This document shows positions 4,279 through 6,401 of a stretch of 6,401 nucleotides of DNA, one piece after another. The position numbers and the translations under genes were made by a program. Under the pieces are notes generated by a model. That model searched no databases. It was not told the origin of the DNA and worked only from the letters and a program-made list of their open reading frames with translations. The stretch spans positions 1 through 6,401 of the forward strand of contig JACPHN010000250.1 in NCBI GenBank assembly GCA_016188575.1. The letters are read 5' to 3'. Within the stretch, counting starts at the first letter, position 1, and each line of letters begins with the position of its first letter. This stretch comes from Candidatus Schekmanbacteria bacterium. Lineage in GTDB: Bacteria; CSSED10-310; JACPHN01.

Positions 4279-4719
4279 CTACATCTCATCGAGGCAGGCG
4301 CGCTCGACCTGGCGCAGATCCACGCTCTGCCGGTAGTCGAAGGCCCGCTGATAGGCCTCACGGATGACCTGTCGGAGCGTTTCTTCCGAAATCCGCAAGG
4401 CGAAGACTTCGATCAAGAAGGCCACGATCATCGCGTGGGTGGCTCCGGTGATGGCGCGGAGAGCGACGATGGCGCGTTTCAAGGCGCCACAATCCACCCA
4501 GAGCCAGAATCCATCCGGGCTGAGCGGAGGTGGGGTGGAGTCGGCTGCCAGGGCGGCTTCCAGAGCGTGGCGCCCCTTACGGCCGATGGTATGAATCGTT
4601 GGCCGCGAAACCCCGGCCTCGCGGGCGATTTGGGCACGGTTGTTGGCTGGAAACGCGATTATCTTCGCGCTAATCTGAATACCGTCGGATGTCGAAAGAT
4701 CTTTGCGGCGAGCGGACAC
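4279..4719 (-). pseudogene. Transposase-like gene truncated before its catalytic domain
   Basis: A 146-residue frame with a helix-turn-helix at residues about 28-50 (AQIAREAGVSRPTIHTIGRK), then FWLWVDCGALKRAIVALRAI and ITGATHAMIVAFLIEVFAL. The tail, RQVERACLDEM, matches the point where longer transposase-like proteins I recall continue into a catalytic core (DEMF, then a V.AG.D-type segment). Here a TAG follows DEM immediately and no continuation is found in the other two minus-strand frames, so most of the protein (normally several hundred residues) is missing. Start: GTG at 4719, preceded by AGGAG about 6 nt upstream; no ATG competes. It may still be translated as a DNA-binding stub. Element ends and target-site duplications could not be identified. 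Family placement is inference; truncation is well supported if the family is right. Confidence 0.55.
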
Positions 4720-4739
4720 GCGATTCTCCTATCAGGTGA

Positions 4740-4907
4740 AAAGTCGGAGATTATCGTGTTGAGCTTTTTGTCTCCGAGGTGATTCTCCGCGAGGCAGCTG
4801 CTGCGGAAGTCGCAGCGATTTGTCGCGAAACGATCATGCGCGCGTCCGAAGAGTGGGAACGTAGTCCCAAGAATGAAGCGATACGGTTCTTCTGCGTCAC
4901 GTTCTAA
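4740..4907 (+). pseudogene. 3' end of a lost cassette gene, start missing
   Basis: An open frame after an in-frame TGA at 4737 encodes about 55 residues (KVGDYRVELFVSEVILREA, then AAICRETIMRASEEWER, ending FFCVTF) and stops at TAA 4905-4907. Only a GTG at 4779 and an ATG at 4836 could start it, and neither has a good ribosome binding site. The composition looks protein-like, and the stop lies 6 nt before the R'' box of the first attC-like site, the usual place for a cassette gene to end. Inferred: the tail of a cassette gene whose front was lost, perhaps when the transposase-like gene arrived. VELFVSEVILREA is similar to FVSELVLEEA in the PIN protein downstream, so it could be a fragment of a related protein, but the rest does not match. 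Confidence 0.33.
4744..4777. repeat. 7-bp inverted repeat upstream of the transposase-like gene
   Basis: TCGGAGA at 4744-4750 and TCTCCGA at 4771-4777 are perfect inverted copies separated by 20 nt. They lie 25-58 nt upstream of the GTG start of the transposase-like gene, where an operator or a terminal repeat would be expected. GATTCTCC also occurs twice nearby as a direct repeat (4722-4729 and 4781-4788). On the minus strand GATAAT between the arms could be a -10 box. Function is inferred only. Confidence 0.3.
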
Positions 4908-4913
4908 ACCGAC

Positions 4914-5010
4914 GGCTAACTCGGCGGTGGAGCGGACTCCGGCCCGCCAGCCGCAATCTTACTTTCACGTCCATTGCGTGGGCCGAAGCCGCTCACTCTG
5001 GACGTTCTTC
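4914..5010 (+). repeat. attC-like recombination site 1 (long form)
   Basis: R''-like box GGCTAAC (4914-4920), 6-nt spacer, left arm GTGGAGCGGACTCCGG (4927-4942), a loop of about 40 nt, right arm CCGAAGCCGCTCAC (4983-4996), 7-nt spacer, then GTTCTTC (5004-5010) at the R' position. The arms pair over 14 positions if one G and one A on the left side are left out of the helix. This is the asymmetric bulge pattern of integron attC sites, and the same G and A recur in the other three sites here. The right arm is followed by the first base of the gene-less cassette A. Confidence 0.5.
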
Positions 5011-5154
5011 CGACGCGCAGCGTCGGAAGAACGGCGCCGGGCAAGGCTCGGCTGTCCCGCCGCGCTGATTCGCGCGGCAGAACAACCGGCTGCAGCGGAC
5101 AGCGCCCTGCGGTAGTAAACTACCTCCGGGTGCTGCCGCTGACCCGGCGCCCCG
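5004..5154 (+). mobile_element. Gene-less cassette-like unit, copy A (about 150 bp)
   Basis: The stretch between two G/TT points (5004/5005 and 5154/5155) is about 150 bp and about 90% identical to 5952-6104. It holds a perfect 13-bp hairpin (5004-5016 with 5020-5032, 3-nt loop GCA), a 7-bp hairpin GCCGCGC/GCGCGGC (5059-5065 with 5072-5078), and an attC-like site at its end. No gene start with a ribosome binding site is inside. Frames crossing it are present in several phases and look like by-products of the repeat. Inferred to be a cassette without a gene, or a tandem pair of recombination sites with a structured spacer. Confidence 0.5.
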
Positions 5155-5161
5155 TTCTGCC
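5076..5161 (+). repeat. attC-like recombination site 2
   Basis: Perfectly matching R boxes GGCAGAAC (5076-5083) and GTTCTGCC (5154-5161) enclose arms CCGGCTGCAGCGGACAGC (5086-5103) and GCTGCCGCTGACCCGG (5132-5147). They pair with an extrahelical G and an extrahelical A on the left side. The centre folds further through GGTAG/CTACC with a TAAA loop. The layout is that of integron attC sites. The R box deviates from GTTRRRY (GTTCTGC here). The expected exchange point is between G5154 and T5155, and sequence identity with copy B is lost there. Confidence 0.6.
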
Positions 5162-5183
5162 GCAAACTCATGAGAGGCCATCG

Positions 5184-5207
5184 ATGGAAAAACAAGCTCA
5201 TTCATAG
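5184..5207 (+). CDS. Possible 7-codon leader peptide ahead of the PIN gene
   Basis: ATG at 5184 is preceded by GAGAGG at a good distance, and the frame reads MEKQAHS then TAG. It ends 11 nt before the GTG of the PIN-domain gene, whose own ribosome binding site (AGGCGGG) is weak. Inferred: translation of the leader could load ribosomes onto the downstream gene, a device described for integron cassettes lacking their own strong site. It could equally be chance, since the frame is very short. Confidence 0.3.
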   Translation: MEKQAHS

Positions 5208-5218
5208 GCGGGTAACCA

Positions 5219-5719
5219 GTGGCAAAGGAGGTTGAAGCCCAAGCGTCGATCTACGTCGAGACCACCGTCATGAGCTACCTCACCGCCCGGCCGAGTCGCG
5301 ACCTTTTGATAGCCGCCAGACAAGAAATGACGAGGGAATGGTGGGACGCATCGCTGGGGAAGTCTGCACTGTTTGTCTCGGAGCTCGTGCTCGAGGAAGC
5401 CGGTGATGGCGATCCGTTGGCGGCAGCGAGTCGCCTGAAGCTGGTCCAATCTCTTCCGCTCCTGGAGGTTACGGCGGACGCCAGCGCCCTCGCGCTGCGA
5501 CTCCTGCATGCGGGGGCGCTGCCTCAGGAAGCGCCACGCGATGCCCTACACATTGCGGTGGCCAGCCTCCATCGCATGCAGTACCTTGTGACCTGGAATT
5601 TCAAGCACATCGCGAATGTCACGAAGAGGCGGGTCATTGTGCGGGTTCTTGAGGACGCCGGGCACATCGCGCCGGTTATCGCTACACCCGAGGATCTGCT
5701 GGAGGTCAACGCATCATGA
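5219..5719 (+). CDS. PIN-domain (VapC-like) toxin homologue
   Basis: A 166-residue protein of the PIN-like family often annotated as a type II toxin. Motifs: IYVETTVMSYL at residues 11-21 with Glu14 where classical PIN proteins have the first Asp; ELVLEEA with Glu59/Glu60; RDALHIAVA at 107-115 with Asp108; and TWNFKHI at 125-131 with Asn127 in place of the last acidic residue. The family is associated with metal-dependent RNA cleavage, but the Glu and Asn substitutions mean catalytic activity is not assured. Start: GTG 5219 is the only candidate, because an in-frame TAA lies at 5213 and no other start precedes IYVETT. A strong AAAGGAGGT (5224-5232) lies oddly just inside the coding region. 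It overlaps the small downstream gene by 4 nt (ATGA), and both lie between two attC-like sites, so this is the main cargo of a mobile cassette. Confidence 0.8.
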   Translation: MAKEVEAQASIYVETTVMSYLTARPSRDLLIAARQEMTREWWDASLGKSALFVSELVLEEAGDGDPLAAASRLKLVQSLPLLEVTADASALALRLLHAGALPQEAPRDALHIAVASLHRMQYLVTWNFKHIANVTKRRVIVRVLEDAGHIAPVIATPEDLLEVNAS

Positions 5720-5943
5720 AGGACACGGTCGCCGAACAAGTACGGGCCGTTCGGCGGAAGCTGTCCGCTCGTTTCGACTTCGATGTAAGGCGCATCTGTG
5801 ATGATGTGATGCAACGGCAGCGCGCAGGCGCCAAGGAGTATGTGACTCAGCCAAAGGCCGAGGGCGAGCAGTCCCGATCCGCCACCGATGCCAGCGCCTC
5901 AGAACAACGGCTTGCAGTGGACGGCGCTACGCACCGCCGCTGA
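5716..5943 (+). CDS. Small antitoxin-like partner of the PIN gene
   Basis: A 75-residue protein beginning with ATG inside the ATGA overlap with the PIN gene and preceded by GGAGGT (5701-5706). Residues 1-48 (KDTVAEQVRAVRRKLSARFD, then FDVRRICDDVMQRQRA and GAKEYVTQP) resemble the short proteins with pattern D..V.EVR..R...A..F..D...I..D...RQ that often neighbour PIN/VapC genes and are assumed to neutralise them. That pairing is known from gene order; neutralisation is inferred here. From about residue 50 the sequence is low complexity, and the last 16 or so residues (SEQRLAVDGATHRR) are encoded by the attC-like site, with TGA at 5941 inside its right arm. The natural tail may therefore have been replaced when the cassette formed. 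Toxin-first order is less common than antitoxin-first. Confidence 0.65.
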   Translation: MKDTVAEQVRAVRRKLSARFDFDVRRICDDVMQRQRAGAKEYVTQPKAEGEQSRSATDASASEQRLAVDGATHRR

Positions 5944-5958
5944 AGCCGAGCGTTCTTC
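5898..5958 (+). repeat. attC-like recombination site 3 (compact, ends the PIN cassette)
   Basis: R''-like CTCAGAAC (5898-5905), spacer AACGGC, left arm TTGCAGTGGACGGCG (5912-5926), a short loop, right arm CGCCGCTGAAGCCG (5935-5948), then AGC and GTTCTTC (5952-5958). The arms pair with the same two extrahelical bases, G and A, as in the other sites. Total length of about 61 nt is close to that of short classical attC sites. The first bases of the PIN cassette (TTCTGCC at 5155) joined to G5952 would give GTTCTG, complementary to the R'' box CAGAAC, as expected for a cassette that circularises on its own ends. Confidence 0.6.
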
Positions 5959-6104
5959 CGACGCTGCGCGTCGGAAGAACGGGGCGCCGAGCAAAGCCCG
6001 GTTGTTCCGCCGCGCTGATCCGCGCGGCAGAACAGCCGGTTGCAGCGGACAGCGCCCTGCGGTAGCAAACTACCTCCGGGAGCTGCCGCTGACCCGGCGC
6101 CACG
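5952..6104 (+). mobile_element. Gene-less cassette-like unit, copy B (about 152 bp)
   Basis: Second copy of the unit at 5004-5154, differing by about 13 substitutions and a 2-nt insertion. It has the same order: perfect 13-bp hairpin (5952-5964 with 5968-5980, loop TGC), the GCCGCGC hairpin (near 6009-6028), and an attC-like site. The 29-nt hairpin is the exact reverse complement of that in copy A: the arms are identical and only the 3-nt loop differs, GCA against TGC. Identity with A breaks off at 6104/6105 on the right and just before 5952 on the left. Confidence 0.5.
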
Positions 6105-6110
6105 TAAGGC
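6026..6110 (+). repeat. attC-like recombination site 4
   Basis: R''-like GGCAGAAC (6026-6033), left arm CCGGTTGCAGCGGACAGC (6036-6053), central GGTAG/CTACC stem with loop CAAA, right arm GCTGCCGCTGACCCGG (6082-6097), spacer CGCCAC, then GTAAGGC (6104-6110). GTAAGGC is one base from the classical GTTAGGC core, unlike the GTTCT-type boxes at the other sites. This suggests that the cassette to the right carries a different end. The extrahelical G and A are conserved. Confidence 0.55.
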
Positions 6111-6157
6111 GGTATCACGATCCCTGGAGGACGAACACAACACTGAGCCAGGCCAAT

Positions 6158-6163
6158 GGAGGG
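6158..6163 (+). promoter_or_regulatory. Strong ribosome binding site for the right-edge gene
   Basis: GGAGGG lies 8 nt before ATG 6172. It is the best Shine-Dalgarno match in the right part of the window and is the main reason to believe the short, open-ended frame that follows. Confidence 0.55.
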
Positions 6164-6171
6164 TTATCGGC

Positions 6172-6401
6172 ATGCGGCGAGCCGCGTCAGGAGCGTGTTT
6201 TCAAAGAGCCCAGGGCCGCCTTCAACCGGGGAAAACGCGATGGCTATGCGTTATCGGTTTGCTCGTGGGGCTGCCTGGTTGCCCGCAGGTTGGCCCGCTG
6301 GTGACCTCAGCATGGCGACATGACCCGCCACGGGCAACGCGGTTGCGAGGTCGCCACGGGTGGTACGAGCGTTCCGGATCGCGACGTGCTATCGTGCGTG
6401 C
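6172..6401 (+). CDS. Probable lipoprotein, 3' end outside the window
   Basis: The frame runs from ATG 6172 to the window edge without a stop (76 complete codons). After an arginine-containing start, a hydrophobic stretch WLCVIGLLVGLPGC (residues 24-37) ends in a lipobox-like LPGC with Cys37, suggesting export and lipidation. The rest that is visible (PQVGPLVTSAWRHDPPRATR, then an Arg-rich run) matches no family I know. The n-region is long (23 residues). The gene starts about 70 nt after attC-like site 4, the usual distance for the first gene of the next cassette. Support is the ribosome binding site and the lipobox. Against it, the arginine-rich continuation could be GC-rich chance reading. 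Confidence 0.5.
   Translation, partial: MRRAASGACFQRAQGRLQPGKTRWLCVIGLLVGLPGCPQVGPLVTSAWRHDPPRATRLRGRHGWYERSGSRRAIVR

Follow-up and report, generated by a model that had tools for sequence, protein, structure and literature searches.

A payload-free integron cassette with a predicted branched attC site, repeated within one bacterial genome bin

Four short sites that share a fold lie at one end of a contig on which no integrase is in view. They raise the question of whether such a region can be part of an integron, and of what the sites delimit. The window analyzed here is the whole of this contig (C99, 6401 bp), which belongs to a genome bin of Candidatus Schekmanbacteria (G000; 9.2 Mb, 93.8% complete, 3.7% contamination). 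The lineage is isolated; a search for relatives returned only seven genomes from its phylum, with nothing more closely related. The initial annotation, made from the sequence alone, took the region for a short integron-type cassette array. This reading was correct and at the same time incomplete, as half of the sites belong to a repeated gene-free cassette whose attC site is predicted to be branched.

Integron cassettes that lack a gene form a recognized subclass. They occur in Vibrio superintegrons (PMC11014356) and in an oral metagenome (PMC6557892), and in Vibrio sp. DAT722 they occupy 25 of 116 positions (PMC2945992). Like these, the unit described below has no protein gene and shares its arrays with coding cassettes. 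By the published descriptions of the Vibrio and oral cassettes, it differs from them in having only 5 nt between R' and R'' and no payload; in addition, it is a single sequence with 18 full copies on many contigs, and its attC is predicted to branch. In the literature searched, which consisted mostly of papers open without subscription, no description was found of a three-way junction in an attC or of a payload-free cassette that had multiplied inside one genome. Gene-less cassettes are known, then, and what appears, as judged from sequence, to be new is a payload-free cassette with a predicted branched attC that has multiplied in one genome.

The region is best explained as one end of an array of integron cassettes, along which coding cassettes alternate with the gene-free cassette of ~150 bp. 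Its features are as follows.

4914..5010 (+): attC site 1, the end of the upstream cassette, whose start is outside the view (27.9 bits)
5005..5154 (+): gene-free cassette, copy 1, 150 bp, G^TT at both borders (genome repeat unit)
5004..5032 (+): R'/R'' palindrome of copy 1, GTTCTTCCGACG...CGTCGGAAGAAC (sequence, alignment, and pair counts)
5050..5087 (+): "hairpin A", the extra hairpin of copy 1, with the inner R'' GCAGAAC in its right strand (pairing and predicted fold)
5077..5160 (+): attC site 2, of copy 1, in the inner register, with the inner R'' and with L boxes that bear the extrahelical G and A; its R' falls within the next cassette
5155..5952 (+): coding cassette of the ordinary type, which carries the PIN gene pair and is bounded by attC sites 2 and 3 (R' match)
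5219..5719 (+): PIN-domain-like protein, putative toxin (Pfam PIN)
5716..5943 (+): small partner ORF, putative antitoxin, whose 3' end enters attC site 3 (overlap with the PIN gene)
5899..5958 (+): attC site 3, of the PIN cassette (73 bits)
5953..6104 (+): second copy of the gene-free cassette, 152 bp, in which the right border has become G^TA by mutation (90% identity to copy 1)
6027..6110 (+): attC site 4, of copy 2 (20.6 bits)
6105..6401 (+): first part of the following cassette (R' GTAAGGC), truncated where the contig ends, 291 bp after the last attC site (sequence)

attC sites of the array and integrases of the genome

The initial annotation had described four attC-like sites with a two-arm fold and two extrahelical bases. 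All four were located where it had placed them, on the + strand, with R boxes around AAC/GTT, a paired L arm, and an unpaired G and A around a CAGNGG-type block. Site 1 has the R'' sequence GGCTAAC, a long variable tip, and the R' junction CG^TTCTTC, in which ^ marks the border. The sites resemble classical attC sites (R''/L''/L'/R') in AAC/GTT, L boxes, the two extrahelical bases, and the variable tip, and also in their orientation relative to genes and intI.

The fold was named from an alignment of 14 ordinary attC sites, all from G000. It begins with AAC/GTT and continues with two stems of 6 bp each, between which one base is unpaired; an unpaired A then precedes the tip. In this alignment, 93.2% of cells are paired, compared with 73.3% after shuffling and 27-46% in slid controls, in which partners were moved by 1-3 columns. 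Double-sided changes number 43, against 14.7 in the shuffled alignments and 5-12 with slid partners.

A covariance model (R1) was built from the same alignment, whose attC sites had been chosen partly because they flank the gene-free unit. It detects 58 sites in the genome at E < 0.01, clustered on contigs that include C43, C56, C102, and C117. In the window, a search of this kind, which the initial annotation had proposed as a check, matched every one of the four sites, with 73 bits for site 3 (5899), which was part of the training set, and 38, 28, and 21 bits for sites 2, 1, and 4, which were outside it. The corresponding values are 38.1 bits for site 2 (genome-wide E 9.6e-7), 27.9 bits for site 1 (E 4.8e-5 over 412 kb), and 20.6 bits for site 4 (E 0.0075 over 412 kb). 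When each site was folded on its own strand, sites 2 and 4 stood out (z = -7.2 and z = -3.4, respectively); sites 1 and 3 were unexceptional (z -1.1 and z -1.6). R1 was also applied to 80 integrase loci from many phyla and gave 61 matches, 60 of which, by a count made by eye from the table that concerns the model and other genomes rather than the window, are on the side and strand expected of attC sites (the exception is L095:1822). The expected placement is the same strand downstream of an intI that faces the array, or the opposite strand upstream of an intI in the usual orientation.

The 5' R' of a real cassette is expected to match the R'' of that cassette's own attC rather than that of the attC immediately before it. 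For the 16 junctions that are not followed by a gene-free unit, the match to the own-cassette R'' averages 7.6/9; over all 29 junctions, R' and R'' of the same site match at 5.1/9 and randomly paired ones at 6.0/9. Several junctions match at 9/9 across 500-1450 bp. The complementarity of R' and R'' is 9/9 in the gene-free units and 7/9 in the PIN cassette, in which the 5' R' GTTCTG.. is compared with the cassette's own R'' CAGAAC.

No intI is present on C99, since the window is one short whole contig. The earlier statement that no integrase is in view therefore reflects how short the contig is: the genome has intact intI genes on C140 and C88, which score 477 and 424 bits against the NCBI model of integron integrases, and partial ones on C7, C177, C159, and C197. 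As the contig stops 291 bp past the last site, an intI may lie close by, and the array may belong to a complete integron or be a CALIN, a cluster of at least two attC sites that lacks an integrase. The covarying attC model, the match of R' to the cassette's own R'', and the presence of intI elsewhere in the genome together support the identification, from sequence, of the window sites as attC-type sites of an integron cassette array, as had been proposed.

The integrase genes of C140 (L051), C88 (L052), and C197 (L045) read towards the array, and the decayed intI of C7 (L039 9984-11179) faces away from it. Transcription of intI towards attI is known from Treponema integrons (PMC3607928). G000 differs from the Treponema type in that the C7 gene has the common orientation, so that platforms of both orientations coexist in this genome. 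The integrase frames exceed the family model N-terminally, by about 113 residues on C7 (L039:9984-10988 (-)), and the open frames of the C140 and C88 genes (464 and 497 aa, respectively) likewise have an N-terminus longer than the model.

Copies, borders, and predicted fold of the gene-free unit

Sites 2 and 4 are within two ~90% identical copies of one repeated unit. A 178-base query of this unit had 63 matches in the genome, some of which are the palindrome read on the other strand, and 18 of the copies are full-length. These are mostly 90-95% identical, and 80-82% at the extremes. In aligned copies with flanks, the unit starts at ..G^TTCTTCCGACG and ends at ..GGCGCCCCG^TT or at a sequence close to this; outside these borders the DNA is unrelated. 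The genome collection had no match to an exact pattern of the unit core, and a DNA search detected no unit in the 59 other genomes of the relatives search; the sequence is thus private to G000, as far as searched. A search of plasmid DNA found nothing similar to the region or to the unit, and an Rfam search of the window gave no match.

Fourteen of the 18 full copies directly follow an attC, three (on C7, C159, and C197) are beside intI remains, and one is unassigned. The pattern that the initial annotation had set against a cassette array, i.e., many copies scattered away from cassette genes, was not seen: the copies are numerous, but 17 of the 18 full ones adjoin an attC or intI remains. On C7, a frameshifted intI faces away from the unit and its frame begins about 190 bp before it; the C159 unit has the same flank, with 79% of positions identical to C7 over ~600 bp. 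A terminal piece of intI on C197 (26629-26697) is 170 bp upstream of the unit there, and the flank resembles the DNA after the C140 intI. The flanks of these three units are presumed to be attI. Left flanks differ among copies, being attC or intI-side DNA, and on the right side a different R' follows most copies. Such variation on both sides is the expected trace of repeated cassette insertion at attC and attI.

The full unit at C43:38664 (L040 8664-8819) has no recognized attC or attI upstream, and it is possible that it represents an insertion at a secondary site or that its attI has decayed. Partial copies occur on C195, C162, and C235, where the arm and the extra hairpin are kept and other DNA replaces the palindrome. 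In the partial copies at L054 6379-6498, L055 7080-7212, and L058 7156-7291, the arm, the extra hairpin, and the attC are retained in the absence of the palindrome; these may be branched attC sites of ordinary cassettes.

The unit opens with a palindrome composed of its own R' and an outer R'' (GTTCTTCCGACG, 5 nt, CGTCGGAAGAAC). Because only these 5 nt separate the 5' R' from the outer R'', the unit carries neither a gene nor any other payload. The palindrome is followed by the Y arm (GGGGCGCCGGG), which is complementary to the right arm, and by a long extra hairpin that carries a second R'' (GCAGAAC) in its right strand. The remainder comprises L boxes with the unpaired G and A, a tip, and the right arm, which extends to G^TT. 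The copies differ by frame-breaking indels of 1-2 nt, which excludes a conserved protein.

The bottom strand is predicted to form a small hairpin and a three-way junction of an outer stem, the L-box arm, and the extra hairpin. In contrast, a classical attC forms one hairpin; the unit has an additional left-arm hairpin between R'' and L'', and its outer R'' arm is complementary to the right arm. One may also read everything ahead of the inner R'' as an inverted copy of the attC that lacks the L-box head. Among 17 aligned copies, 93-97% of cells are paired in the palindrome, hairpin A, and the L arm (93% in hairpin A). Double changes number 2 in 43 pairs, as the copies are too alike for covariation within the genome to prove hairpin A, and the case for this hairpin comes from the occurrence of the same fold in unrelated sequences of other lineages. 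When the Y arm is kept from pairing, the fold is less stable by 6 to 15 kcal/mol in units of G000 and by 12 to 18 kcal/mol in those of other lineages; this constraint takes away the outer stem and does not single out the plain attC fold. The two R'' sequences, outer and inner, compete within the array, where pairing is certain for AAC/GTT alone. IntI may use either the inner R'', as a plain attC, or the outer R'', as a branched attC, and the two folds may compete.

The same architecture in other lineages

The same order of parts, in unrelated sequence, was found at 3 of the 80 integrase loci from named genomes. These are L085 (Nitrospira sp. nzgw278), L087 ("bacterium JPNA_maxbin.176"), and L088 (Syntrophaceae UBA6255, a MAG), each with one copy about 180 bp after intI. 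L085 copies occur next to intI and after ordinary attC sites, and this locus also has a 103-bp version without the extra hairpin beside 148-bp versions. Relatives of its unit are also present in G352, another genome from the Nitrospira phylum. Three copies occur in the L087 genome, one of them following an attC, and the L088 genome has a second copy, which is partly N-masked. Folded as single-stranded DNA, the units of G000, L085, L087, and L088 give the same hairpin and three-way junction, with z from -8.6 to -10.6; the G000 unit was folded in the locus-complement orientation, and both strands give the branched shape.

A strict scan, which required the palindrome and complementary arms, was carried out on 170 integrase loci (1.02 Mb), some of them from the same genome. 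It returned ten places, nine of which are of the unit's kind and come from three genomes. The tenth, in L140, was set aside, as its shape differs from the architecture of the unit. The same scan of ten shuffles of the 1.02 Mb gave zero matches; a loose version, with 4 matches in two shuffles, was dropped. Among the about 165 integrase loci examined, the architecture was seen in only 3 genomes. Their integrases belong to the closer relatives of the C140 IntI, at 67-75% identity.

Explanations for the unit and the coding cassette beside it

We consider it likely that the region is the end of an array whose integrases are on other contigs, and that the unit is a payload-free cassette moved in trans by IntI. 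The gene-free cassette would be an attC site closed on itself that carries nothing. An extra hairpin in the attC left arm would create the three-way junction, with the L-box arm and the extrahelical bases retained; equivalently, an attC would be joined to an inverted attC copy that lacks the L-box head. If host IntI proteins recognize the folded bottom strand, a payload-free cassette would be about the smallest thing that they can move. Most probably, IntI inserted the unit in trans, repeatedly, at G^TT of attC and attI. The unit would then be non-autonomous, with its own recombination as the sole selected function, and its multiplication would require no host benefit. What the sequences show directly is the sites, their borders, the number of copies, the predicted fold, and its recurrence in other lineages; we infer that IntI has moved the unit, that the unit is still mobile, and that its spread brings the host no benefit. 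A broader proposal, that payload-free cassettes with branched attC sites are recurrent selfish, non-autonomous elements moved by IntI and that their insertion or excision is controlled by two exclusive folds, a plain attC and a branched one, to which the extra hairpin and the outer arm give rise, is tentative.

The branched fold could also lack a function of its own. Tandem gene-less cassettes may have been fused by deletion, with one attC head lost between two R'/R'' palindromes, and the debris then copied within arrays. The shorter version in L085 that lacks hairpin A would fit such a history, and so would the resemblance of hairpin A to a second R'/R'' junction that duplicates the end of the Y arm. 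However, four unrelated sequences have all retained a complementary outer arm and a complementary hairpin A, and the cassettes flanking the unit differ at each copy, which makes this origin rather improbable. It is unlikely, too, that the unit benefits the array, as a transcript insulator, mRNA end, attenuator, or promoter, and that IntI spread it for that reason. Several gene-less cassettes of Vibrio and of an oral metagenome show promoter activity (PMC11014356, PMC6557892), and the unit trails many coding cassettes and is in the first position after intI in several integrons; yet neither sigma-70-type promoters nor intrinsic terminators were found beyond chance in 4700-6401. The lineages retain the fold although their sequences are entirely different, as would fit a structural role in either case.

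As a short, non-coding palindrome present in many copies, the unit also recalls MITE- or REP-like elements, and a transposase could have inserted it into attC sites without its being a cassette. MITE-like structures, according to the passage of PMC8618304 that cites Gillings 2009, mobilize integrons; as presented there, they are likewise short, palindromic, and non-autonomous, but flank integrons and move them by transposition, whereas the unit is a cassette bounded by G^TT. An origin of this type is highly improbable: the unit has no terminal inverted repeats and no target duplications, both of its ends are at G^TT, its left flanks include intI-adjacent DNA, and it ends in an attC itself.

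If the unit is indeed a payload-free cassette moved by IntI, an attC could itself turn into a selfish mobile element. With cassettes reduced to the recombination site alone and multiplying, spread without a useful gene would become directly testable. A branched attC, if real, would widen what an integron integrase can recognize, and models based on a single hairpin may partly miss or misparse such sites.

The toxin-antitoxin-like pair that the initial annotation had noted between two sites is a PIN-like gene and a small ORF, located between sites 2 and 3. The PIN-like protein scores 22.6 bits with Pfam PIN (E 1.7e-4) and just misses the cut-off of 23.6; a PDB search with it gave no significant match. 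The small ORF overlaps the PIN gene by 4 bp, and in other genomes, too, PIN homologues overlap small ORFs that resemble this one. These data suggest that the two genes may be a cassette-borne, possibly VapBC-like pair of the toxin-antitoxin type without a clear database family. Three paralogues of the PIN gene are present in G000 (C43:48898-49353, C256:42270-42731, and C10:868-1320), so that this genome has four PIN-like genes of one family, each near a match of the attC model. On the opposite strand of the window, a 146-aa ORF at 4279-4719 (-) has no Pfam match and two weak matches to PADLOC models (E 0.0005 and 0.006).
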